In this document: one piece after another, positions 426 through 63,415 of the stretch
Layout: each line of letters opens with the position of its first letter
How positions within the stretch are numbered: the first letter of the stretch is position 1
Position numbers and translations under genes: made by a program
Notes under the pieces: model-generated
Told to the model about the DNA's origin: nothing
The model's database searches: none
What the model saw: only the letters and a program-made list of their open reading frames with translations
Source of the DNA: Actinotalea sp. Marseille-Q4924
GTDB lineage: Bacteria; Actinomycetota; Actinomycetes; Actinomycetales; Cellulomonadaceae
Assembly (NCBI RefSeq): GCF_916618755.1
Contig: NZ_CAKAKB010000001.1
Span: forward strand, 62,001 to 126,000
DNA: 64,000 nucleotides
Direction of reading: 5' to 3'

Positions 426-1790
426 TCAGCCCCCGGTCACCATCCACGCCGTCCCCCGTGCCCGAAGACCGGTCGTGACGGCGCGCGCGAGCATGAAGAG
501 GCCGGCGAACGCCACCCAGGACCAGGCGAGACCGACGGCGCCGTCGTCGGCCCACGTGCGGACCGCGACCGCGGCCGGGGCGTACACGAGGAGCGTCGCC
601 AGGCCGACCAGGGCGAGGTAGCGGCCGTCACCCGCGCCGATGAGCACGCCGTCGAGGACGAAGACCCACCCGGCGACGGGCAGCGTCACCGCGACGATCC
701 ACAGGGCGAGGGCGACGGCGCGTCGGACGGCGTCGTCGTCGGTGAAGAGCGGCCCGAGCCACCAGGCCAGCGGGGCCAGGAGCAGGCCGATGGCCACGCC
801 CGCGCCCGTCCCCCACTGCAGGGTCCGGCGCAGCACCGCCCGCGTGCCGACGACGTCGCCTGCACCGAGACCGCGCCCGACGAGCGCCTGTGCGGCGATG
901 GCGAGCGCGTCGAGCGCGAAGGCGATGAGGCCCCACACCGCCATGACGACCTGGTGACCGGCGAGCGACACGGTCCCCAGCCCCGCGGCGACCCACGCGG
1001 CCAGGAGCAGCGCCGCCCGCAGGGAGAGCGTCCGCAGGAGCAGGGGGACGCCGGCGCGTGCCCCGTGCAGCACGCCTGCCCCGGACGGGCCCAGCCCGAT
1101 GCCCTCGCGTCGCGCCCCCCGCACGACGACGGCCCCCAGCACCGTGGCCATGAGCAGCTGCGTCACCGCCGTGCCCAGGCCCGAGCCCGCGACACCCATG
1201 CCGACGACGAGGACGAGCACCACCGAGAGCACCGCGTTGAGCACCGCCCCGCCGGCAGCGACCCACAGCGGCGTCCGCGTGTCGAGCATGCCGCGCAGGA
1301 CCCCGGTCGCCGCGAGGACGACGAGCATCCCCGGCAGCCCGGGCGCGGACCAGCGCAGGTAGGCGACCGCGTGCGGGAGGACCTCCGCGGGTGCGCCCAG
1401 CCCGGCCAGCAGCCACGGTGCCGTGGCGAGCAGCGCAGCGGCGAGGACGGCGCCCAGGCCCGCCGCGATCCACAGGCCGTCGACCCCGAGCCGCAGCGCC
1501 CGTGCGCGGTCCCCGGCGCCCAGGGAGCGTGCGACGCTCGCCGTGGTCGTGTACGCGAGGAAGACGCACAGCCCGACGGCGGTCGTCAGGACGGTCCCGG
1601 CGAGCGCGAGCCCCGCGAGCGGGGCGGTGCCCAGGCGCCCGACGACGACCGAGTCGACGAGGACGAAGAGCGGTTCGGCGACGAGGGCGCCGAGCGAGGG
1701 GAGCGCCAGGGCGAGGATCTGGCGGTCGACCGGGCGGAGCCGGGCCCGCCACGAGGTCGCGCGTCGCTCCTGCGCCTGCCGTCCGCCCAC
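426..1790 (-). CDS. MATE family efflux transporter
   Basis: An integral membrane antiporter of about 454 residues, the usual MATE length, with about 12 hydrophobic helices in two homologous halves. It opens with DRQILALALPSLGALVAEPLFVL-type sequence and carries VDSVVVGRLG in helix 1-2, both characteristic of MATE/DinF proteins that export drugs or metabolites using Na+ or H+ gradients. The frame stays open far upstream, antisense to the next gene. I place the start at the GTG at 1790, just before the conserved region, because a TACCGT box ends 8 bases upstream, as in other leaderless genes of this window. Substrate unknown. It is divergent from the sugar epimerase gene. Confidence 0.85.
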   Translation of the reverse strand: MGGRQAQERRATSWRARLRPVDRQILALALPSLGALVAEPLFVLVDSVVVGRLGTAPLAGLALAGTVLTTAVGLCVFLAYTTTASVARSLGAGDRARALRLGVDGLWIAAGLGAVLAAALLATAPWLLAGLGAPAEVLPHAVAYLRWSAPGLPGMLVVLAATGVLRGMLDTRTPLWVAAGGAVLNAVLSVVLVLVVGMGVAGSGLGTAVTQLLMATVLGAVVVRGARREGIGLGPSGAGVLHGARAGVPLLLRTLSLRAALLLAAWVAAGLGTVSLAGHQVVMAVWGLIAFALDALAIAAQALVGRGLGAGDVVGTRAVLRRTLQWGTGAGVAIGLLLAPLAWWLGPLFTDDDAVRRAVALALWIVAVTLPVAGWVFVLDGVLIGAGDGRYLALVGLATLLVYAPAAVAVRTWADDGAVGLAWSWVAFAGLFMLARAVTTGLRARGTAWMVTGG

Positions 1791-1928
1791 GGGGCACGAC
1801 GGTACGCCCGCGTGCCCGGCGGGCGCCTCGCGGGTCCGCGTGCGCCCCGCGAGGCAGCCGGGAAGCCCTACCGTGGCGACCGTCCCACCAACGCCCGGCG
1901 CACCTCCGTGCCGGCAGGAGGAGCCGAC

Positions 1929-3170
1929 ATGACCCGTCCCGGTGACACCGACCACCTCGCCGCCCAGCGCGCGGACCTGCTGCGGTTCGCGGCCGGCGCG
2001 GAGCACGCGGACGGGTTCGGCTACCTCGACGAGGGCGGCCGGATCGACCGCACGCGCCCGGTCGAGCTGTGGATCACGTGCCGCATGACGCACGTCTTCA
2101 GCCTGGGTGCGCTCGCGGACGAGCCCCCGGCCGACGGCGGCCCGTCGCGCCCGGAGCTGCTGCGGCTCGCCGCGCACGGGGTGTCGGCTCTTCGCGCCGC
2201 GCTGCACGACGACGAGCACGGCGGCTGGTTCGCGGCCGTGCACCCGGACGCCAGGGTCGACGACCGCAAGCAGGCCTACGGCCACGCCTTCGTGGTGCTC
2301 GCCGCGAGCTCGGCCGCGGCGGCCGGGGTCGACGGCGCGGAGAAGCTGCTGGCGGACGCCCTGGCGGTCCACGAGCAGCGGTTCTGGGACGACGCCGCGG
2401 GACTCGCGGTGGAGGAGTGGGACGCGGCGTGGACGACGCTCGACACGTACCGGGGCGTCAACGCCAACATGCACACGGTCGAGGCGTACCTCGCGGCCGG
2501 GGACGTCACCGGTGAGCAGCTGTGGCACCGCCGGGCGGCGCGGATCGGGGCGCACGTCGTCGGCTGGGCGCGGGAGAACGACTGGCGCATCCCCGAGCAC
2601 TTCGACGCGGACTGGACACCGCTGCTCGAGCACCACCGGGACCGGCCGGCGGATCCCTTCCGCCCGTACGGCGCGACGGTCGGCCACGGGCTGGAGTGGG
2701 CGCGGCTGCTCGTGGCCCTGGACCGTTCGCTGGGGGACGGCGCCCCCGAGGGGCTCGTGGAGGCCGCCGTGGCGCTGACCGAGCGCGCTGTCGCGGACGG
2801 CTGGTCGGTGGACGGTGCGGACGGCTTCGTCTACACGACCGACTGGTCCGGCCGGCCGGTGGTGCGGGCCCGGATGCACTGGGTCGCTGCCGAGGCCGTG
2901 AGCACGGCGTACGTCCTGCACCAGGTCACCGGTGACCAGCGCTGGGCCGACGACGCCGCGACCTGGTGGGCGTACGTCGACCGCTACCTCGTCGACCACG
3001 AGCGCGGGTCGTGGCACCACGAGCTCGACACCGACAACCGGGTGTCCGGCGAGGTGTGGCCGGGCAAGCCGGACGCGTACCACGCGTACCAGGCGGCGGT
3101 GCTCCCGCTGCTGCCGGTGGTGCCGTCCTTCGCGACGGCCCTGCGCGTGCGGCACGAGTGGGGCGCCTGA
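1929..3170 (+). CDS. AGE family sugar epimerase/isomerase
   Basis: A cytoplasmic (alpha/alpha)6-barrel enzyme of 413 residues, the normal length for the N-acylglucosamine 2-epimerase superfamily (acylglucosamine epimerase, cellobiose epimerase, mannose isomerase, YihS). Visible family signatures are the NANMH-E-like stretch near residue 178, an RMHWVAEA helix with a conserved His near 317, and a KPDAYHAYQA C-terminal signature. The start ATG is preceded by GGAGGAG. The sequence does not decide the substrate; mannose/fructose isomerase or a sulfoquinovose-isomerase-like role are both possible. It is followed by a hairpin (3204-3221) and then the dnaB control region, so it looks monocistronic. 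Confidence 0.82.
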   Translation: MTRPGDTDHLAAQRADLLRFAAGAEHADGFGYLDEGGRIDRTRPVELWITCRMTHVFSLGALADEPPADGGPSRPELLRLAAHGVSALRAALHDDEHGGWFAAVHPDARVDDRKQAYGHAFVVLAASSAAAAGVDGAEKLLADALAVHEQRFWDDAAGLAVEEWDAAWTTLDTYRGVNANMHTVEAYLAAGDVTGEQLWHRRAARIGAHVVGWARENDWRIPEHFDADWTPLLEHHRDRPADPFRPYGATVGHGLEWARLLVALDRSLGDGAPEGLVEAAVALTERAVADGWSVDGADGFVYTTDWSGRPVVRARMHWVAAEAVSTAYVLHQVTGDQRWADDAATWWAYVDRYLVDHERGSWHHELDTDNRVSGEVWPGKPDAYHAYQAAVLPLLPVVPSFATALRVRHEWGA

Positions 3171-3377
3171 CGTCCACACCGGGTGCGACTGCTGTCCACC
3201 TGGTGGTCGCCTGGCGGACCAGTTCCGGTCCACAGGCCGCCCGGGGCATCGGTGCAGGTCCGCGCCGTCTCCCACCGGTCGTCCCACGATGTCCACAGGT
3301 CTGTCCACCGCCTGTGCACAGACGAGTCGGACAGGGTCCACAGGCACCCGGGGCTTGTCCCCAGGCCGGTGCACAGG
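3171..3377 (+). promoter_or_regulatory. Cluster of DnaA-box-like sites upstream of dnaB
   Basis: Within about 205 bases there are six words of the form GTNCACA (near 3172, 3228, 3291, 3314, 3336, 3369), three relatives TGTCCACC or TGTCCCCA (3193, 3302, 3356), and all lie in the same orientation. Actinobacterial DnaA boxes resemble TTGTCCACA, and the general bacterial core is TTATNCACA, so this is a dense cluster of near-consensus DnaA sites. It lies just upstream of the likely dnaB promoter. Binding by DnaA is inference; the repeats themselves are plain in the sequence. Confidence 0.55.
3204..3221 (+). terminator. Hairpin after the AGE epimerase gene
   Basis: TGGTCGCC and GGCGGACCA pair around a single T with one bulged G, 33 bases after the stop codon of the epimerase gene. 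There is no T-run, as is common for actinobacterial terminators. It lies inside the DnaA-box-like cluster. Confidence 0.4.
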
Positions 3378-3393
3378 ACGGAGGTCCCACCAC

Positions 3394-3423
3394 TTGGAGG
3401 CGCGCCGGGACCGGGCCTAACGT
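3394..3423 (+). promoter_or_regulatory. Candidate dnaB promoter
   Basis: TTGGAG (3394-3399) and TAACGT (3418-3423) are separated by 18 bases and resemble an actinobacterial housekeeping -35/-10 pair. This would give dnaB a leader of roughly 160 bases. The rest of the spacer, 3424-3575, shows no further gene or clear hairpin. Confidence 0.35.
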
Positions 3424-3590
3424 CACGCGCGGCGACCGGTGACTGGTCCGGCGTGCCACCGAACGGCGTCGTCCTCGGACGCGGGCCGTGTCGGTGCTCC
3501 GCGGTAGGACGGGGACCAGGAACGGACGCACGACCGACGTCCGTCGCGACGGGCGGCGGTCGCCGGGGACGCAGTGGAGGTGGGCAGCGG

Positions 3591-4967
3591 TTGAGCATCG
3601 ACGAGCTCGAGACGAGTCTCGGGGCACCCCGGCGGGAGCACTACGACCGGACCCCGCCCCAGGACATCGTGGCCGAGCAGTCGGTGCTCGGCGGCATGAT
3701 GCTCTCCAAGGACGCGATCGCCGACGTCGTCGAAGAGGTCAAGGGCACGGACTTCTACCGTCCCTCCCACGAGATGGTCTACGACGCGATCCTCGACCTC
3801 TACGGCCGGGGTGAGCCGGCGGACGCCGTCACGGTGGCGGCGGAGCTGACCAAGCGCGGCGAGATCGGCCGCGTCGGCGGGGCCCCCTACCTCCACACGC
3901 TCATCTCGATGGTGCCCACCGCGGCCAATGCCGGCTACTACGCCCGCATCGTGCGGGAGCGGGCGGTGCTGCGTCGCCTGGTCGAGGCCGGCACGCGCAT
4001 CGTCCAGCTCGGCTACGCGGCCGACGGCGGGGACGTCGAGGAGCTCGTCAACAACGCCCAGGCGGAGATCTACGCCGTCTCGGAGAACCGCACGAGCGAG
4101 GACTACCTGCCGCTCTCCGAGATCATCAACGGGGCGATGGAGGAGATCGAGGCCGCGAGCAACCGCGGCGAGGGCATGGTCGGCGTGCCGACCGGCTTCT
4201 CGGACCTCGACCGCCTGACGAACGGCCTGCACCCCGGGCAGATGGTCGTCATCGCCGCACGACCGGCGATGGGCAAGTCGACGATGGGGCTGGACGTCCT
4301 CCGGTCCGCGGCCATCCGGCACAACATGGCGTCGGTGATCTTCTCCCTCGAGATGAGCCGCAACGAGATCACGATGCGTCTGCTCTCCGCCGAGGGCCGC
4401 GTACCCCTGCAGAACATGCGCAAGGGCACCATGCGCGACGAGGACTGGCAGCGCCTGGCCTCGACGATGGGCAAGGTCTCCCAGGCGCCGCTGTTCATCG
4501 ACGACTCGCCGAACATGTCGCTCATGGAGATCCGCGCGAAGTGCCGGCGGCTCAAGCAGCGGCACGACCTCAAGCTCGTCGTCATCGACTACCTGCAGCT
4601 CATGAGCTCCGGCAAGCGCGTCGAGTCCCGCCAGCAGGAGGTCTCGGAGTTCTCGCGTGCGCTGAAGCTCCTCGCCAAGGAGCTCGAGGTCCCGGTCATC
4701 GCGATCTCACAGCTGAACCGCGGCGCGGAGCAGCGCACGGACAAGCGGCCGCAGATGAGCGACCTGCGCGAGTCCGGCGCGATCGAGCAGGACGCGGACG
4801 TCATCATCCTGCTGCACCGCGAGGACGCCTACGAGAAGGAGTCGCCGCGCGCCGGCGAGGCCGACATCATCGTCGCCAAGCACCGCAACGGGCCGACGGA
4901 CAACATCGTCGTCGCGTTCCAGGGCCACTACGCCCGGTTCGTCGACATGGCGCCCGAAGGCATGTGA
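3591..4967 (+). CDS. dnaB: Replicative DNA helicase DnaB
   Basis: The hexameric 5'-3' helicase that unwinds the replication fork and recruits primase. It has 458 residues, a normal intein-free length. The N-terminal DnaB_N domain begins at PQDIVAEQSVLGGM. The RecA-like domain holds Walker A ARPAMGKST (Lys 229), Walker B VVIDYLQLM, and the SQLNRGAEQR and DLRESGAIEQDADV motifs. The start is TTG at 3591, with GGAGGTG upstream, giving MSIDEL; the open frame further upstream is not conserved-looking. In many bacteria dnaB follows the rpsF-ssb-rpsR-rplI ribosomal genes. Here it instead stands after a spacer with DnaA-box-like sites and is followed 14 bases later by a VOC gene. Confidence 0.97.
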   Translation: MSIDELETSLGAPRREHYDRTPPQDIVAEQSVLGGMMLSKDAIADVVEEVKGTDFYRPSHEMVYDAILDLYGRGEPADAVTVAAELTKRGEIGRVGGAPYLHTLISMVPTAANAGYYARIVRERAVLRRLVEAGTRIVQLGYAADGGDVEELVNNAQAEIYAVSENRTSEDYLPLSEIINGAMEEIEAASNRGEGMVGVPTGFSDLDRLTNGLHPGQMVVIAARPAMGKSTMGLDVLRSAAIRHNMASVIFSLEMSRNEITMRLLSAEGRVPLQNMRKGTMRDEDWQRLASTMGKVSQAPLFIDDSPNMSLMEIRAKCRRLKQRHDLKLVVIDYLQLMSSGKRVESRQQEVSEFSRALKLLAKELEVPVIAISQLNRGAEQRTDKRPQMSDLRESGAIEQDADVIILLHREDAYEKESPRAGEADIIVAKHRNGPTDNIVVAFQGHYARFVDMAPEGM

Positions 4968-5398: not shown

Positions 5399-7117
5399 CT
5401 AGGGACGCGGGTCGCCGACGGCTGTCTCGACACCGGCGGATCGCCTCGTGTCCGCCACCCCGTGGACGGTGCGTGCCTCCCAGTCGACCTCGAGCGCCTG
5501 GACCGATCCGTAGCTCGCCCGGCTCCCGGGGGGCGTCACCCGGACCGCGTAGCCGCGGGCCTCGAGCTCCGCGCGGAGGCGGTCGGACTCCAGTCGCATC
5601 TGCCCACCGGTCAGCATGAACCGCTCGGCGGGCACGGCCTCCTCCAGGTCCTGCCCGTGCAGCGCCCAGAGCGACACGACCTGCGCCGTGGTGTTCGGGA
5701 TCTGACCGCCTCCCGGCGTGCCGATGACGAGCGCCGGACGGTCCTGCCCGTCGAGGAGCATCGACGGCGAGCTCCACGTGACCGACCGTCGCCCGGGCGC
5801 GGGGGTGTTCGCGTCGGTCGCGCCGATGTCGCTGAACCGTTCCAGCTGGTCGTTCATGAAGAAGCCCGCGACGTACTGCCCCGAGCCCCAGTAGTTGGTG
5901 ATCGTGTTGGTCATGGACACGGCCATCCCGTCGGCGTCGACCACCGAGATGTGTGTCGTGTTCGCGGCACCCTCGTAGGGCACGCCGGTGGCCGTCCGGG
6001 CCGCGTCGCCCAGTCCCGCGGCGATCGCGGCGTTCGCCTGCGGGTCGGTGAGCTGCTCGACGGGGACGTCCACGAACGCGGGGTCGCCGAACGACCGCTG
6101 CACCGACTCCTCCGCGACCTGCCACGCTCGCGACTGCAGCTCCACGAAGTCCGCAGACGCGGGGTCGACACCACCGATGCCTGAGGCCTCCGCGATCTGG
6201 AGCATCTGGATGATCGCGGCTCCCGGGAGCGCCGGAGCGCCCGAGAGCATCGTGTAGTCCCCGACCGGCCCCCGTGCCGGTGCCGACTCCTGGACGGCGT
6301 ACGCCGAGAGGGACTGCGGGTCGATGCCCTCGACCGCCGAGAGCGCGGGCACGAGCGACCCGGTGTAGAACGCGTCGGGTCCTTCCGTGGCGAGCGTCCG
6401 CATGGTCGAGGCGAGCTCCGCCTGCACGAGCGTGTCGCCCTCCCGCAGGGGGGACCCGTCGGGGCGGTTGAAGTGCGGCAGCCCGGATGTCACCGCCCGT
6501 CCCGGCTCACCGCCGATCGTCCCGGCCAGGTAGCCCGAGACGGGCCCGCCGGCCTCCGCGATCCGGATGGCAGGCTCCAGGAGGGCAGCCCACTCCAGCG
6601 TCCCGTGCTGCTCGTGCAGCCGTGCCATGCCGGCCACGAATCCCGGGATCCCGGTGCCGCTCGCCGGGACGGTGCCCGTGACGTCGACGACCTCCCGGTA
6701 GTCGTAGTTCAGGGCCTGGCCGTCGGCGACGACGATCGACGCCCCGCCACCGCCGATGCCCGACGACGCCGGCTGCATCACCGCGTCCGCGAAGGCCGCG
6801 GCGACGGCGGCGTCCACCGCGGTCCCGCCCTGCTCCAGGGCCTCCATCCCGGCGCGGGTCGCCAGCGGATGACCCGAGCTGACGCCGTAGGCACCGAGGG
6901 CGGCCGGCTCGGGAGTGGGGGTCGGCGTCGGCGTCGGCGCGTCCTCGACCGGTGACGGCGACGTGCCGACCGGCGGCTCCTCCGGGGCCCGCTCCGGCGT
7001 CGTGCAGCCGGCCACGAGCAGCAGCGCACCACCCGCGGCCCAGCGCCGCAGCGCGTCGCGCCTCGCCGGGCGCGTGCTCGTCGCGGACGCGGTGTGACGG
7101 CGTCGACCTCGGATCAT
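5399..7117 (-). CDS. ggt: Gamma-glutamyltransferase, lipoprotein
   Basis: A secreted, self-cleaving N-terminal nucleophile hydrolase that removes or transfers gamma-glutamyl groups. 572 residues from ATG 7117, preceded by GAGGAG. The N-terminus is a twin-Arg-bearing signal ending in LLLVAGC, a lipobox, followed by a Thr/Pro linker with (PT)n repeats, so it should be anchored to the outer face of the membrane. The family core starts at GVSSGHPLATRAGMEAL. The processing site is NTTH, with the predicted nucleophile at Thr 387, and the glycine loop is GTPGGGQ (GSPGG in many relatives). The actinobacterial substrate is uncertain: glutathione is usually absent, so other gamma-glutamyl compounds are more likely. 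Confidence 0.9.
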   Translation of the reverse strand: MIRGRRRHTASATSTRPARRDALRRWAAGGALLLVAGCTTPERAPEEPPVGTSPSPVEDAPTPTPTPTPEPAALGAYGVSSGHPLATRAGMEALEQGGTAVDAAVAAAFADAVMQPASSGIGGGGASIVVADGQALNYDYREVVDVTGTVPASGTGIPGFVAGMARLHEQHGTLEWAALLEPAIRIAEAGGPVSGYLAGTIGGEPGRAVTSGLPHFNRPDGSPLREGDTLVQAELASTMRTLATEGPDAFYTGSLVPALSAVEGIDPQSLSAYAVQESAPARGPVGDYTMLSGAPALPGAAIIQMLQIAEASGIGGVDPASADFVELQSRAWQVAEESVQRSFGDPAFVDVPVEQLTDPQANAAIAAGLGDAARTATGVPYEGAANTTHISVVDADGMAVSMTNTITNYWGSGQYVAGFFMNDQLERFSDIGATDANTPAPGRRSVTWSSPSMLLDGQDRPALVIGTPGGGQIPNTTAQVVSLWALHGQDLEEAVPAERFMLTGGQMRLESDRLRAELEARGYAVRVTPPGSRASYGSVQALEVDWEARTVHGVADTRRSAGVETAVGDPRP

Positions 7118-14580: not shown

Positions 14581-17500
14581 TCAGCGCCTCAGCGGCGCCC
14601 CGCCCGTCGGACGTCCCGGCGTGGTGGCGCCGGTGTCGGTGCGCTCACCCGCCGTCGGCCCGCCCGGGCCGAACCGGCCGCCCGGACCGGCCGGCTCACC
14701 CGGCCCGCCCGGGCCGAAGGGACCGCCGGGCCCGAACGGCCCGCCCGGGCCGAAGATCCCACCCGGTCCCCACGGGGGACCGGACGGCTCCGGCTCCTCC
14801 GAGCCGCCGTCGACCACGCCCAGCGTGACCCGGTCGAGCAGCACCTCGTCGCCGGCCGCGACCGAGTCGCCGAGGTCCAGGCCGTAGCCGTGCACCGCCG
14901 TCAGGGTCAGGCCGTTGTCCGGCGCGCCCTCGGGCTGGTCCGCGGACCGCTCGAAGTCGGCGAACGGGATGCTGATCTGCTGCCAGCCGGCCTCGTCGTC
15001 GACGAAGGTCGCCTCGAAGCGCTCAGCGGTGTCCGGTGCCTGCTCCACCGAGATGTAGTCGATGAGGTAGGACGCGGGCAGCTGGAGGTCGTCGGCGATG
15101 GTGCCGCCGAAGTTGCCCCCGATCGCCAGGTTCGCGATGAGGAAGAACGGGTGCTCGAACACCCACTCCGACCCGGCGGGCAGGTCCGCCGGGGTCACCT
15201 GGTGGAACTGCTCGCCGTCCATGAACCAGGTGATCTTGTAGGGCTCCCACTCGACCGTGAAGGTGTGGAAGTCGTCCGCGAAGGACGTGCCCTCCGGCAG
15301 GTAGACCCGGCCGTCGATCGACTGGCCGCCGGAGTACCCGGGGCCGTGGATCGTGCCGAACGCCTCGTTCGGCATGCCGTTGTCGCCCTCGACGTGCTCC
15401 ATGATGTCGATCTCGCCGGTCTGCGGCCATCCCACGTCGAGGAAGTCGTTGCCGAGCGTCCAGAACGCCGGCCACAGGCCCTCGCCGCCCGGGACCTTGA
15501 CCCGGGCCTCGATCCGGCCGTGCAGGAACTCCTGCTTGTCCATGGTCGAGATGCGCGCCGACGTGTAGTCGCACGCCACGTTGCTCGAGGAGCACCACAG
15601 GGACTCGTCGGTGTTCTCGCGCAGCTGGATCTCGAGGTTGCCCTCGCCGTCCTGCCACACGTTCTCGTCACCCGGCGTGTAGAACTGCGACTCCTGGTTG
15701 CCCCAGCCCCAGCCGCCGGTCTCGTTCGACCACGACGTCGGGTCCACCGGCGTGCCGGCGGGGGCGTCGAAGTCGTCGAAGTAGACGCGCTCGGTCCAGC
15801 CCTCGGGGCCGGGGTCCGGGGCGTCGTCGTCGCGCAGGTCCACCGTGACCGGCTCCCCGCTGCCCGTGCCCCGGTACCAGAACGTCAGGCCGTCGCTGCC
15901 CGACCAGTCCTGCGGCTGGGCGAAGTCGCGGCGCACGGTCGCGCCCGGCTCCTCGACGGTGATGCGGGCGACGCCCTCGTCGGCCGCCTGGCCCGGGTAG
16001 GCCAGGGCGCCGTCGGCGGGCACGCGGATCGTGTCGAGGACCGAGCCCTCGGCGCGCCACAGGCCCGCCTCGTCCTCGAAGTCCTCGATCAGCGCGGGGT
16101 CGCGGACGTCGTCGTCCTCGATGGTGATGCTGGCGAACCGCGCGAACGGGCTGAGCTCGCCCGGGCCGGTCACGCCCGAGAGCGCCACCTGGACGGTCTT
16201 GTCGAGCTCGGCCTTGTCGTCGTCGGGCAGCTCGACCGAGAAGGTCTTCTCCGTCTCGCCGGGGGCGAACTCGAGGGTGCCGCTCGTGGCGACGTAGTCG
16301 CGGCCGAGCGCGGCCGGGACGTCCTCGGTCCGCGTGCGGTCCGTGCTGTCCAGCGTGGCGTAGTCGACCGTGACGGTCTCCTGCGCCGGGCGACCGAGCG
16401 TGACGGTGACCGTCTGGGGTGCGCCCTCCGCGGCCTGGTAGACACCGCGGTCGAAGCCGACGAGCAGCGGCACGTCGGCGAGGCTCGCGCCCCATCGGGC
16501 GACCCGGTCGACGAGGTACTGCTGCGAGCCGGTCGTCTGCGCGACGCCGATCGCGTAGCCGTGGACCTCGTCCAGCGTGAAGCCGTCGTTCGGGGCACCG
16601 TTGCCGATGTCCTTGCGCGAGAAGTCGGCCCACTCGAGCTCGACGAACCGCCAGCCGACGACGTCGTCCGTGACCGTCGCGCTGTAGCGCTCGGCGTCGT
16701 CGCGGGTCGAGCCCTCGCCGCGGTTCTCGATGACGTCGACGTAGACCTGGTCGCCCGTGCCCTGGCCGAGCAGCCAGAAGTTCAGGCCCTCCGAGTCGCT
16801 CCAGTCCTGGGGCGTCCAGACGCCGTCGGACGCGAACGCGTGGGACACGCCCGCCCAGCTGCCGGCGGGGACGTCGAGCGTGAGGCCGAGGGCGCTGTTG
16901 CCGTCCTCGGCGCCCGGCCGCGCGGCCGTGCGCTCGTCGGTGACGACCTCCGCGGTCACGGCGCCGCCGTTGCCGGAGTAGGTCTGGAAGCCCAGGCCGA
17001 GGCCGTTCGCGTCCGTGCCGGAGGGCAGGCCGCCCTCGTACTCGAACTCGTCGATGACCGTCTCGGGGACGGTGAGGGAGACGTCCTCGAGGTACCAGGT
17101 GGTCTCGTTCGGCACGGCGGTCGCGCCGATCGCCCAGCCGTGGACGGCCGTCAGGTTGAGGCCGTCGTTGGGTGCGCCGTTGCCGATCTCCTTGCGCGTG
17201 AAGGTGCTGAACGGGAGCTCGACGTACGTCCAGCCGACCGTGTCGTCGGTGAAGACGACGCTGTGCCGCTCGGCGTCATCGGTGGTGGAGCCCGGGTTGC
17301 GGTTGTCCAGCAGATCCACGAAGAGCGACCGGCCGCTGTTGGTGCCGTAGAACCAGAAGGACAGGCCGTCGTAGCGGCTCCAGTCCTGCGGGGTCCACGC
17401 GCCGCCCGGCTCGCCCAGCTTCTGGGTGACGCCCGCGAAGGACGGCGCCTGCATGGTCAGGCGCAGGGCCGTGTCCCCGGCGTCGCTGCCGGGGGCCGGC

Positions 17501-18618
17501 GACGGCGGGAGCTCCGCCGCGCCGGACACGGTCGCGGTCGGGTCGGCGAAGAACTCGTACCCGCCGGTGACGCCGTCGGGCGTCACGGGCAGCGGTCCCG
17601 CGGTGTCGAAGCCCTCGACGAGCCGGGTGTTGTCCCAGACCGGCTGGGCCTCGGCGGCGTCGTCGTCGCGGAGGGTCAGGGTGTGGGTCGCCGTGCCCAG
17701 AGTGGCGGACCCGCCCGACGGGTTCGACAGCGTGAGCGTGAGGCTCTCGTTGCCCTCGACGTCCGTGTCCTGGAGGGTCGCGACCTGCACTGACGCGGTC
17801 GTGGCGCCGGCAGGGACCGTCACGGTGCCCGCGGCGGCGGTGTAGTCCTGCCCGGCCGTCGCGGTGCCGTCCGCGGTCGTCCAGTCGACCGTGACGTCCT
17901 CGGTCGCGGCGACGCTGAGGCGCACCTCGACGGTCGCGGTGCCGCCCTCCGTCACGCCACTCGTCGCCGCCGCGAACCGGACCACGGGGGCGACGTCGGC
18001 ACCGGCGTACCAGGCGACGTCGTCGACCTTCCAGGTCACCGGGCCCGATGTCGAGACCACGGGGAAGATGAAGCCCGGCAGAGCGGTGGTGCTGAGCGTC
18101 CGGTCGGCGTCGGCCTCGTTGAAGTCCGTGGCGTAGGTGTACGCCGTGAACGGGATCTGGACCAGGCGCCACCCGGTCCAGTCGTCGGTCAGCTGGTGGT
18201 CGAAGCGCTCGCCGTCCGTGCCGTCGATCAGCTCGGACTGGAACACCGCGCCGCTGCCGGTGCCGTGCATCCACAGCTGGAGGCCGTCGAACGCGGAGGC
18301 GTCCTGCGGGGAGGCGAAGTTCTGCCCCCATCCGGCGAAGCCGGCCGGCACGTCGGCGCCGACGGACAGGACCGTCGTCGGCTCGGTCTGCCCGGGGCGC
18401 GCGAGCGCGTCCCCCGGCGCGACGGTCTCCACGCCGAAGCCGGCGCCACCACCGTTCCCGCCGTACGTGTAGAACCCGGCGCCGCCGAGCTGCTCGTTCG
18501 TGAGGCCCTCGAAGTCCGCGAGGACGGAGACCGTCGCCGCGGCGGCCGGTGCCGAGAGGGCCAGGGACAGTCCGGTGACGGGGACGAGTCCCGCTGCGAT
18601 CCACCTTCGTCGTGCCAC
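14581..18618 (-). CDS. Secreted multimodular GH16 endo-beta-glucanase
   Basis: 1345 residues. Signal peptide: MARRRWIAAGL ... SAPAAAA, cut near 28. Order seen: CBM11/CIA30-like module 1 (29-206), Calx-beta (207-320), module 2 (324-512), module 3 (513-707), Calx-beta (709-836), first half of module 4 (838-940), GH16 catalytic domain (941-1190), second half of module 4 (1191-1265), and a Gly/Pro tail with FGPGGP repeats (1270-1345). The catalytic motif is GEIDIMEHV (nucleophile Glu 1069, Asp 1071, acid/base Glu 1074), with the extra Met typical of laminarinase-type endo-1,3-beta-glucanases; WPAFWTLGN also fits. The start is GTG 18618 with GGTGGAG four bases upstream, not the further upstream ATG, because only this gives a clean signal peptide. 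Probably acts on beta-1,3 or mixed-link glucan outside the cell. Confidence 0.93.
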   Translation of the reverse strand: MARRRWIAAGLVPVTGLSLALSAPAAAATVSVLADFEGLTNEQLGGAGFYTYGGNGGGAGFGVETVAPGDALARPGQTEPTTVLSVGADVPAGFAGWGQNFASPQDASAFDGLQLWMHGTGSGAVFQSELIDGTDGERFDHQLTDDWTGWRLVQIPFTAYTYATDFNEADADRTLSTTALPGFIFPVVSTSGPVTWKVDDVAWYAGADVAPVVRFAAATSGVTEGGTATVEVRLSVAATEDVTVDWTTADGTATAGQDYTAAAGTVTVPAGATTASVQVATLQDTDVEGNESLTLTLSNPSGGSATLGTATHTLTLRDDDAAEAQPVWDNTRLVEGFDTAGPLPVTPDGVTGGYEFFADPTATVSGAAELPPSPAPGSDAGDTALRLTMQAPSFAGVTQKLGEPGGAWTPQDWSRYDGLSFWFYGTNSGRSLFVDLLDNRNPGSTTDDAERHSVVFTDDTVGWTYVELPFSTFTRKEIGNGAPNDGLNLTAVHGWAIGATAVPNETTWYLEDVSLTVPETVIDEFEYEGGLPSGTDANGLGLGFQTYSGNGGAVTAEVVTDERTAARPGAEDGNSALGLTLDVPAGSWAGVSHAFASDGVWTPQDWSDSEGLNFWLLGQGTGDQVYVDVIENRGEGSTRDDAERYSATVTDDVVGWRFVELEWADFSRKDIGNGAPNDGFTLDEVHGYAIGVAQTTGSQQYLVDRVARWGASLADVPLLVGFDRGVYQAAEGAPQTVTVTLGRPAQETVTVDYATLDSTDRTRTEDVPAALGRDYVATSGTLEFAPGETEKTFSVELPDDDKAELDKTVQVALSGVTGPGELSPFARFASITIEDDDVRDPALIEDFEDEAGLWRAEGSVLDTIRVPADGALAYPGQAADEGVARITVEEPGATVRRDFAQPQDWSGSDGLTFWYRGTGSGEPVTVDLRDDDAPDPGPEGWTERVYFDDFDAPAGTPVDPTSWSNETGGWGWGNQESQFYTPGDENVWQDGEGNLEIQLRENTDESLWCSSSNVACDYTSARISTMDKQEFLHGRIEARVKVPGGEGLWPAFWTLGNDFLDVGWPQTGEIDIMEHVEGDNGMPNEAFGTIHGPGYSGGQSIDGRVYLPEGTSFADDFHTFTVEWEPYKITWFMDGEQFHQVTPADLPAGSEWVFEHPFFLIANLAIGGNFGGTIADDLQLPASYLIDYISVEQAPDTAERFEATFVDDEAGWQQISIPFADFERSADQPEGAPDNGLTLTAVHGYGLDLGDSVAAGDEVLLDRVTLGVVDGGSEEPEPSGPPWGPGGIFGPGGPFGPGGPFGPGGPGEPAGPGGRFGPGGPTAGERTDTGATTPGRPTGGAPLRR

Positions 18619-18722
18619 GTTGCTCCACCTTTGGAGTCGCCTGCCGCGCGGCGTCGCGCGGGCCCGAGGGGGACGGGTCAACGCAGTATTGCGCCCCGTC
18701 GACGAAAATGGAACCGGTCTCA

Positions 18723-61840: not shown

Positions 61841-63415
61841 GTGGTCCTCCTGAGCCTCTCGGCGAGTCATCGCGACCTCGATCTCGACGTCCTGGAGCAG
61901 CTGAGCTCCGGCGCGCACTCCGTCGGGACCAGCGTCGTGGCGGACAGCCCCGCGATCACCGGTTGCGTCGTCCTGGCGACCTGCAACCGGTTCGAGCTGT
62001 ACCTCGACACGGACATCCCCCGCCCCGCCGACGACGGCGCCCCGGTCACCCTGCGCGCAGTCGAGCCCCTCACCGCCGGACGGCCCGGCGACCCGGCCGC
62101 CGAGCCGGCAGCCGACGGCACCGGGCCCTCCGCGGTCATCCCGGCCCCGCCGGCGGTCGGCGCGGCTCGACCCGCGCCGGAGGCGGAGTCGCTCGCCGAC
62201 CGCGCCCACCGGGCCGCGATCGCCGACGCCGCCCGGGACGTCATGACCGTCGTCGCCCGCACGTCCGGGCTGGACCCCGACGCGGTGGCCGAGTCGCTCC
62301 AGCTCGCCGTCGGCCCGGCGGTGAGCCGTCACCTCTTCGCGGTCGCCTCGGGTCTGGACTCCATGGTCGTCGGGGAACGCGAGGTGGCCGGGCAGGTGCG
62401 CCGCGCGCTGCAGACCGCGCGCGCCCTCGGCACGACGTCCTCCACGCTCGAGCGCCTGTTCCAGTCCGCCTCGCGCACGTCGAGGGCCGTCGGCTCGCGT
62501 ACCGGGCTGGGCGGGACGGGCCGGTCGGTGGTCGGCGTCGCGCTCGACCTCGTCGCGCAGGACGTGGACCTGCGTCGGTCGTCCGTGCTGCTCATCGGGA
62601 CCGGCTCCTACGCGGGCGCGAGCCTCACGGCCCTGCGCACCCGCGGGGTCCACGACGTCGCCGTGTACTCCCCGTCGGGGCGCGCCCACGGCTTCGCGAC
62701 CGACCGCGGCGCCCGGGCTGTCGAGGTCGGCGGCCTCCCCGCGGCCCTCGCGGAGGCGGACGTCGTCGTCTCCTGCTCGGGGGCGCTCGGCCCGGTCGTC
62801 GACGTCCCCCTCGTCAAGGCGGCGCGCGAGGCGCACGTGCGTGAGGGGACGAGCGGTGCCCAGCCGCGCGAGGGCGGTGCCCACGCGGCCGAGGCACCGG
62901 CCCGCCCGCGGGTCCTCGTCGACCTCGCGCTCGCCCACGACGTCGACCCCGCGGTCGCCACGGTGCCCGGCGTGCGGCTGGTCGACCTCGCCACGATCCA
63001 GGCGAACGCGCCCGCCGCCGTCTCCCGGGAGGTCGTGCGCGGGCGGCGGATCGTCGACGAGCACGCCGCCGAGTTCGAGGCGACGCTCGCCGAGCAGACG
63101 CTCGTGCCGGCGGTCGTCGCCCTGCGACGCCACGTCGAGCAGGCGATGGCGGCGGAGCTGCACCGCGTCCGTGCCGGGGACCCCGAGACGGCGGCCGCGG
63201 TCGAGCGCTCCCTGCGCCGGTTCGCGGCGTCGGTGCTGCACGTCCCGGCCGTGCGGGCGCGCGAGCACGCGCGACTCGGTCGCCACGAGGAGTACCGGGA
63301 CGGGCTCGAGGCGCTCTTCGGCCTCCAGGTGGCCGGGGGTGTCGGTCCGCGGGCGTCCGACGGCGCCGCGGACGTCGCCGAGTCCCCTGCCGGGGACGAG
63401 CCCGCCGCCTCCTAG
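61841..63415 (+). CDS. hemA: Glutamyl-tRNA reductase
   Basis: 524 residues, first committed enzyme of C5-pathway tetrapyrrole synthesis. Catalytic Cys 48 in [35 protein letters not shown] domain with [13 protein letters not shown]; dimerisation helix at the end. It is longer than usual: an Ala/Pro-rich insert of about 50 residues (60-110) and a second low-complexity insert (about 327-350). Start GTG 61841. Its last four bases overlap the next minus-strand gene tail to tail. Confidence 0.95.

Follow-up and report, generated by a model that had tools for sequence, protein, structure and literature searches.

A catalytic domain of glycoside hydrolase family 16 (GH16) nested within a loop of a family 11 carbohydrate-binding module (CBM11) is well supported by sequence comparison in a secreted multimodular protein of Actinotalea sp. 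Marseille-Q4924. The gene encoding this protein lies on the minus strand, at 14581..18681 of the window analyzed here (the whole 64,000-nucleotide stretch of contig NZ_CAKAKB010000001.1 from position 62,001 to 126,000), and specifies 1366 residues when read from a TTG codon. The protein presents the domain order CBM11 (M1), Calx-beta, CBM11 (M2), CBM11 (M3), Calx-beta, M4a-GH16-M4b and a Gly/Pro tail, with M4a and M4b designating the two halves of a fourth, split CBM11 module (M4). The support for nesting stems from the complementarity of these two halves, the use of the same loop in 19 genomes, the grouping of split modules in a single clade and the conservation of the linkers joining them to GH16. 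We assign a probability of about 0.72 to the overall interpretation, in which GH16 occupies a CBM11-type loop, the split module acts mainly as a structural chassis and M1-M3 provide targeting.

An earlier note on this stretch had proposed that the fourth module is split around GH16, and comparison with intact modules bears this out. A profile built from 42 intact CBM11 modules, from which split modules were excluded, matches the N-terminal flank of GH16 (M4a, residues 861-960; 15802..16101, on the minus strand like all features of the gene) at profile positions 37-114 of 191 (48.2 bits), and the C-terminal flank (M4b, residues 1215-1288; 14818..15039) at positions 118-186 of 191 (68.5 bits); in the structure model described below, M4a comprises seven strands and M4b four. 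Of 500 shuffles generated for each flank, 459 (M4a) and 454 (M4b) were scored, with maxima of 4.7 and 5.5 bits, respectively. The GH16 part itself scored -4.3 against this profile, and the best of its shuffles (12.4 bits) is the top of the whole control. In the Pfam CBM_11 search, M4b exceeds the cut-off on its own (PF03425 positions 109-167), and M4a has no PF03425 row of its own at an expect value (E) of 1e-6. Judged by sequence, M4 hence matches CBM11 on both sides of GH16. The intact modules M1 (residues 49-229; 17995..18537), M2 (351-540; 17062..17631) and M3 (541-735; 16477..17061) are all identified by Pfam CBM_11, which returns five stretches over the whole protein (E = 2.3e-51, 174.8 bits vs. 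a cut-off of 27). The run VDLLDN..STxDDAER, described in the note for all three intact copies, is present in M2 and in M3 (here with VDVIEN) but not in M1, a more divergent CBM11 that reads ELIDGTDGERFD at that place.

The nested domain (residues 961-1214; 15040..15801) is a GH16 of laminarinase type. It matches Pfam Glyco_hydro_16 at residues 1007-1168 (E = 6.8e-21, 74.9 bits vs. a curated cut-off of 22), presents the GH16 fold and contains the ExDxxE signature that we take to be the catalytic motif of the family, here E-I-D-I-M-E (15397..15414), with Glu1090, Glu1095 and Asp1092 invariant in the nine rows of alignment A1. Among solved structures, endo-beta-1,3-glucanases come closest to it and, together with family membership and the conserved motif, make a secreted beta-1,3-glucanase activity likely. 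The GH16 endo-beta-1,3-glucanases or laminarinases of Cellulosimicrobium cellulans (3atg) and Nocardiopsis (2hyk) were solved as free catalytic domains, whereas in the window protein the GH16 domain constitutes a loop insert.

Searching genome contigs with the whole protein identified two Actinotalea loci, one in Actinotalea ferrariae (L004), which aligns over residues 2-1360 and reaches 92% identity in its best segment, and one in an Actinotalea metagenome-assembled genome (L003), which aligns over residues 5-1299 (80%). With the M4-GH16 region as query, 106 of the 221 genomes in the window's family yielded some match at E 1e-3, and the ten best, the window's own included, carry both flanks around GH16. 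Scans with profile A1 spanned both flanks in 2 of 396 genomes of an order sample (the window's own and G376), 6 of 396 genomes of a phylum sample (the window's own and five of family f32), 5 of 35 genomes of family f32 and 4 of 199 genomes of family f19, plus one broken open reading frame (ORF) in the latter (genome G1113); these genome sets overlap, and the A1 scans scored a subset of candidates per genome. In total, the nesting is found in 19 genomes from three actinobacterial families (ten from the window's family, four from f19 and five from f32), always in the same loop, which provides the homologs with a shared insertion point by which the note had suggested checking its proposal.

The note had also pointed out that homologs carrying either segment alone would speak against nesting. 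From 45 stretches taken for their GH16 or M4b matches, 43 gave a GH16 ORF at E 1e-10 (L053 and L055 gave none). Among the resulting 44 GH16 proteins (window included), 19 present both halves, 24 present neither and one (L135) presents GH16 and M4b only, with halves called at a domain E of 1e-3 in 31 proteins, including the window's, and 1e-2 in 13. L135 (G1113; ORF 5844-7025, plus strand) is a broken member whose frame begins within GH16 and retains M4b; of the intact ORFs, none was seen to pair GH16 with just one half. In one of the 19 (L043, genome G091) M4b is cut off by the contig end; a 165-residue frame with an M4b match, located at a contig end in the same genome, is probably the rest of this gene.

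The position of the insertion is closely maintained across the 19 rows. The M4a match ends at model positions 114-118 in 17 of them and the M4b match starts at 109-119 in 18, with the half matches of L039 and L133 overlapping more than those of other rows. Counted along the alignment, GH16 enters between about positions 96 and 99 of the CBM11 chain of Clostridium thermocellum Lic26A-Cel5E (CtCBM11; 1v0a). Most rows read D-x-x-A-P-D-P-G-P-x-G-W at the N-terminal junction and APDTAERF at the C-terminal junction, with one single-residue length difference. Over the 19 rows, the mean majority fraction is 0.71 for the N-side linker (residues 952-963; 15793..15828), 0.93 for the C-side linker APDTA (residues 1215-1219; 15025..15039), 0.71 for GH16, 0.58 for M4a and 0.60 for M4b, making the C-side linker the most conserved of the five stretches compared. 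The value for M4a is a lower bound, because guest residues sit in four rows: in L111 they replace the first half, and L042, L108 and L110 also carry a guest (see below). Ordinary flexible linkers lack such conservation. Joined by a conserved linker on either side, GH16 would be held by two close connections and not by one tether. Ratios of nonsynonymous to synonymous substitution rates (dN/dS) in six pairs ranged from 0.14 to 0.45 for M4a (computed on the piece after the guest only in L108 and L110), 0.05 to 0.54 for M4b and 0.14 to 0.32 for GH16, with M1-M3 labels in L107-L110 assigned as best hits, and show that both halves are under purifying selection.

To address the history of the insertion, we inferred a tree from 42 intact and 19 split modules (61 in total), in which L111 is represented by an M4 row with guest-domain residues in place of its first half. 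The split modules make up one side of a 100/100 branch, with a long stem of 0.6 changes per column. A single origin of the GH16 insertion is the simplest reading of this topology, short of proof because long branches meet at the split. Within the split clade, L042, from the same genus as the window, groups with two rows of family f32 (97/92), and L106, of family f19, clusters with three members of the window's family (95/92). These cross-family groupings suggest horizontal transfer.

The analysis also revealed a feature of the split module that is new here: a second guest, in another loop, in four relatives (L042, L108, L110 and L111). In these proteins M4a is itself interrupted, with the piece preceding the guest matched in L042 (E 8e-5), L108 (1.5e-4) and L110 (2.7e-5), and recognized by eye in L111. 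The loop involved lies between model strands 42-49 and 54-64, or approximately CtCBM11 positions 48-56, and is empty in the window protein (around residues 910-913; 15943..15954). L042 (residues 520-615), L108 (689-792) and L111 (about 746-870) share a common guest of some 95-125 residues (VTIDVKG..GNGVVPV..DVNGDG), for which no Pfam or NCBIfam match was found at E 0.1. In L110 (genome G915; ORF 946-4761, minus strand), three surface-layer homology (SLH) repeats are found instead at residues 335-517 (Pfam SLH, E = 4.6e-30, three stretches), after which M4a resumes in frame. This SLH insertion is a single case and may reflect mis-assembly, because it is contained in a single 4.8 kb contig from a genome that is 84% complete. 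The tree pairs L108 with L110 as sisters (100/100), so that the guest at the same place differs between near relatives. The second loop looks like an additional port, occupied in some relatives by other domains, including SLH repeats. We tentatively extend this to the notion, which we rate somewhat below even odds, of the split CBM11 jelly roll as a natural chassis that stays constant while one port always holds GH16 and the other receives variable guests; if true, catalysis and surface attachment would be plugged into one small fold.

Attachment is also suggested by the C-termini of several relatives. By eye, 7 of the 19 (L037, L038, L039, L040, L041, L106 and L133) end in sortase-type signals, with LAxTG/LGATG-like motifs ahead of a hydrophobic segment and Arg residues; L108 has a choice-of-anchor Q domain at its C-terminus. 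The window protein presents a Gly/Pro-rich tail (14584..14817) in place of a sorting signal. Together, the sorting-type ends, the choice-of-anchor Q domain and the SLH form point to recurrent cell-surface attachment among these relatives.

Based on these observations, we propose that one loop of a CBM11-type jelly roll received, probably in a single event, a GH16 domain of endo-beta-1,3-glucanase type. M4a would contribute the first seven strands of the jelly roll and M4b the last four, with a 12-residue linker on the N-terminal side and a 5-residue linker on the C-terminal side joining GH16 to the split module. M4 would then act mainly as a structural chassis that positions the active site, and the intact M1-M3 would carry out most of the polysaccharide targeting. 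The assembly of both halves into one jelly roll in the real protein, this division of labor and the rigid fixing of GH16 envisaged in the earlier note would all be expected of such an arrangement. The 42-module profile matches the CBM11 structures 1v0a and 2lro (E of about 2e-8), the only solved relative of the intact modules that was found; the CBM11 of Lic26A-Cel5E is uninterrupted and aligns as one stretch, whereas M4 is split. In CtCBM11, Tyr22, Tyr53, Asp99 and Tyr129 are reportedly residues of the ligand cleft. For M4 of the window protein, L003 and L004, the alignment shows a gap over the stretch that would hold the Tyr22 equivalent. The Tyr53 and Tyr129 positions fall in poorly aligned M4 loops, and neither of two alignments places a Tyr opposite Tyr129. 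Since M4 is without the Tyr22 stretch, targeting is expected mainly from M1-M3.

Structure prediction, which the note had put forward as a check, was only partly favorable. In one AlphaFold model both halves fold, with a mean predicted local distance difference test score (pLDDT) of 80 and 11 strands of mostly high pLDDT, the first seven from M4a and the last four from M4b. The underlying alignment (A9) combined 3 full split modules, 18 overlapping anchor fragments of these, 9 intact modules and 4 viral GH16 domains; its rows were chosen by trial, because with other row sets MAFFT aligned CBM modules to GH16 or viral GH16 domains to the CBM region. Several results weigh against the proposed arrangement. 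The good model is non-blind, because in its alignment, whose rows had been selected, the intact modules already bridged GH16 without a break, and a model obtained from the three orthologs alone (window, L003 and L004) failed, with a mean pLDDT of 33.9. Fold searches, in one of which the rows covered model residues 98-357, gave only GH16 among the best 50 in each list and so bear little on the CBM part. Among the 60 PDB matches listed for the profile of the nested region only GH16 chains were found, and M3 alone had no PDB match at E 5. Lastly, conservation in M4a and in M4b falls short of that in GH16, and the tree tool warns of long branches meeting at the split-module branch.

Other readings of M4 must be weighed against this background. 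M4 could be a working sugar-binding module with GH16 placed beside its cleft, such that a single glucan chain would extend from the cleft to the active site. Both ports map at or next to the positions of CtCBM11 Tyr53 and Asp99 and, given the cleft roles ascribed to these residues, both would be at the cleft. However, the gapped Tyr22 stretch and the lack of a Tyr at the Tyr129 position do not favor sugar binding by M4, and loops filled with domains may equally block the cleft; we deem this reading unlikely.

Two further readings concern the flanks. The lower conservation of M4a and M4b with respect to GH16 and the long stem of the split clade are what one might expect if GH16 had entered a CBM11 that no longer folded, with vestigial flanks persisting as spacers. 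Such decay is nonetheless hard to reconcile with dN/dS values below 0.6 in every comparison, with a CBM11 signature on each side of GH16 in 19 of 19 rows, with linkers nearly fixed in length and conserved in sequence, and with a confident, albeit non-blind, AlphaFold model, and we consider it very improbable. We attach even less weight to the possibility that each flank is a partial domain in its own right, with no more than a resemblance to half a CBM11. The failed three-row model leaves room for it, but in all 19 rows the two halves adjoin at nearly the same point of the profile, with scores far above those of shuffles, and the ORFs examined above speak against their independence.

The usual image of a glycosidase is that of catalytic and binding modules strung like beads on flexible linkers. 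A GH16 domain held within a CBM11-type chassis would depart from this picture and raises the question of whether two-point, as opposed to one-point, holding alters how an enzyme attacks a polysaccharide. The nesting places an enzyme inside a binding-type module in three bacterial families, the reverse of the nested cases found in print, and with the second loop offers a pair of natural insertion sites in a small jelly roll. CBM4 modules are inserted in the TIM barrel of the GH10 xylanases Xyn10C and Pm25 (PMC7848910), and the GH148 enzyme EngU holds an inserted CBM4, with other GH148 members carrying different inserts at the same place (PMC5725463). Both cases resemble the one reported here in nesting catalytic and binding modules within one glycosidase, but there the enzyme hosts the binding module, whereas here a binding-type module hosts the enzyme. 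Lic26A-Cel5E is named in PMC2954218. In agreement with the earlier note, which knew of no described GH16 of this kind, no GH16 inside a CBM was found in the open-access PubMed Central literature as searched by titles and abstract starts, a weak absence given that subscription papers, CAZy and InterPro fall outside this search. Domain-by-domain annotation may report partial CBM11 matches and overlook the nesting.

CBM11 modules in other contexts were also surveyed. A Pfam CBM_11 search over 198 genomes of the order detected matches in ten at E 1e-6. Nine stretches with other CBM11 proteins were taken, and no nested domain was seen in the four proteins covered by the Pfam scan (L183, L185, L186 and L188; L184, L187, L189, L190 and L191 fall outside it): CBM11 pairs precede GH3 in L185, L186 and L188, and CBM11 lies behind GH26 in L183. 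In a viral collection, CBM11 gave no locus, and GH16 gave one locus with profile A1 and 43 with profile A4. Matches to the protein were found in 285 plasmid records, none covering more than 80% of it; among the best 20 of these 285, 19 match the GH16 part only, and that of Nonomuraea gerenzanensis matches residues 117-1270 in four pieces within 807 bases.

The two Calx-beta domains of the window protein (residues 230-350, 17632..17994, and 736-860, 16102..16476) are recognized by Pfam (E = 7.5e-31, two stretches), and its N-terminus resembles a signal peptide when the sequence is inspected by eye. A GTG at 18618 (residue 22) is a likelier start than the TTG because a GGTGGAG stretch lies just upstream, and would yield a 1345-residue product; the residue numbers of the earlier note, 21 below those used here (P0001), match this start. 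One more GH16 match is present in the same genome, in a protein with CBM96 and without a CBM11 match at E 1e-5. The five neighboring genes scanned encode an amidohydrolase, a GNAT acetyltransferase, an Rce1-like membrane protein, a PAS-GAF-SpoIIE protein and an ABC ATPase, with no pointer among them to a glucan-utilization cluster. A 967-codon open frame runs antisense to the gene (14890-17793, plus strand) and is taken for a by-product of high G+C content.
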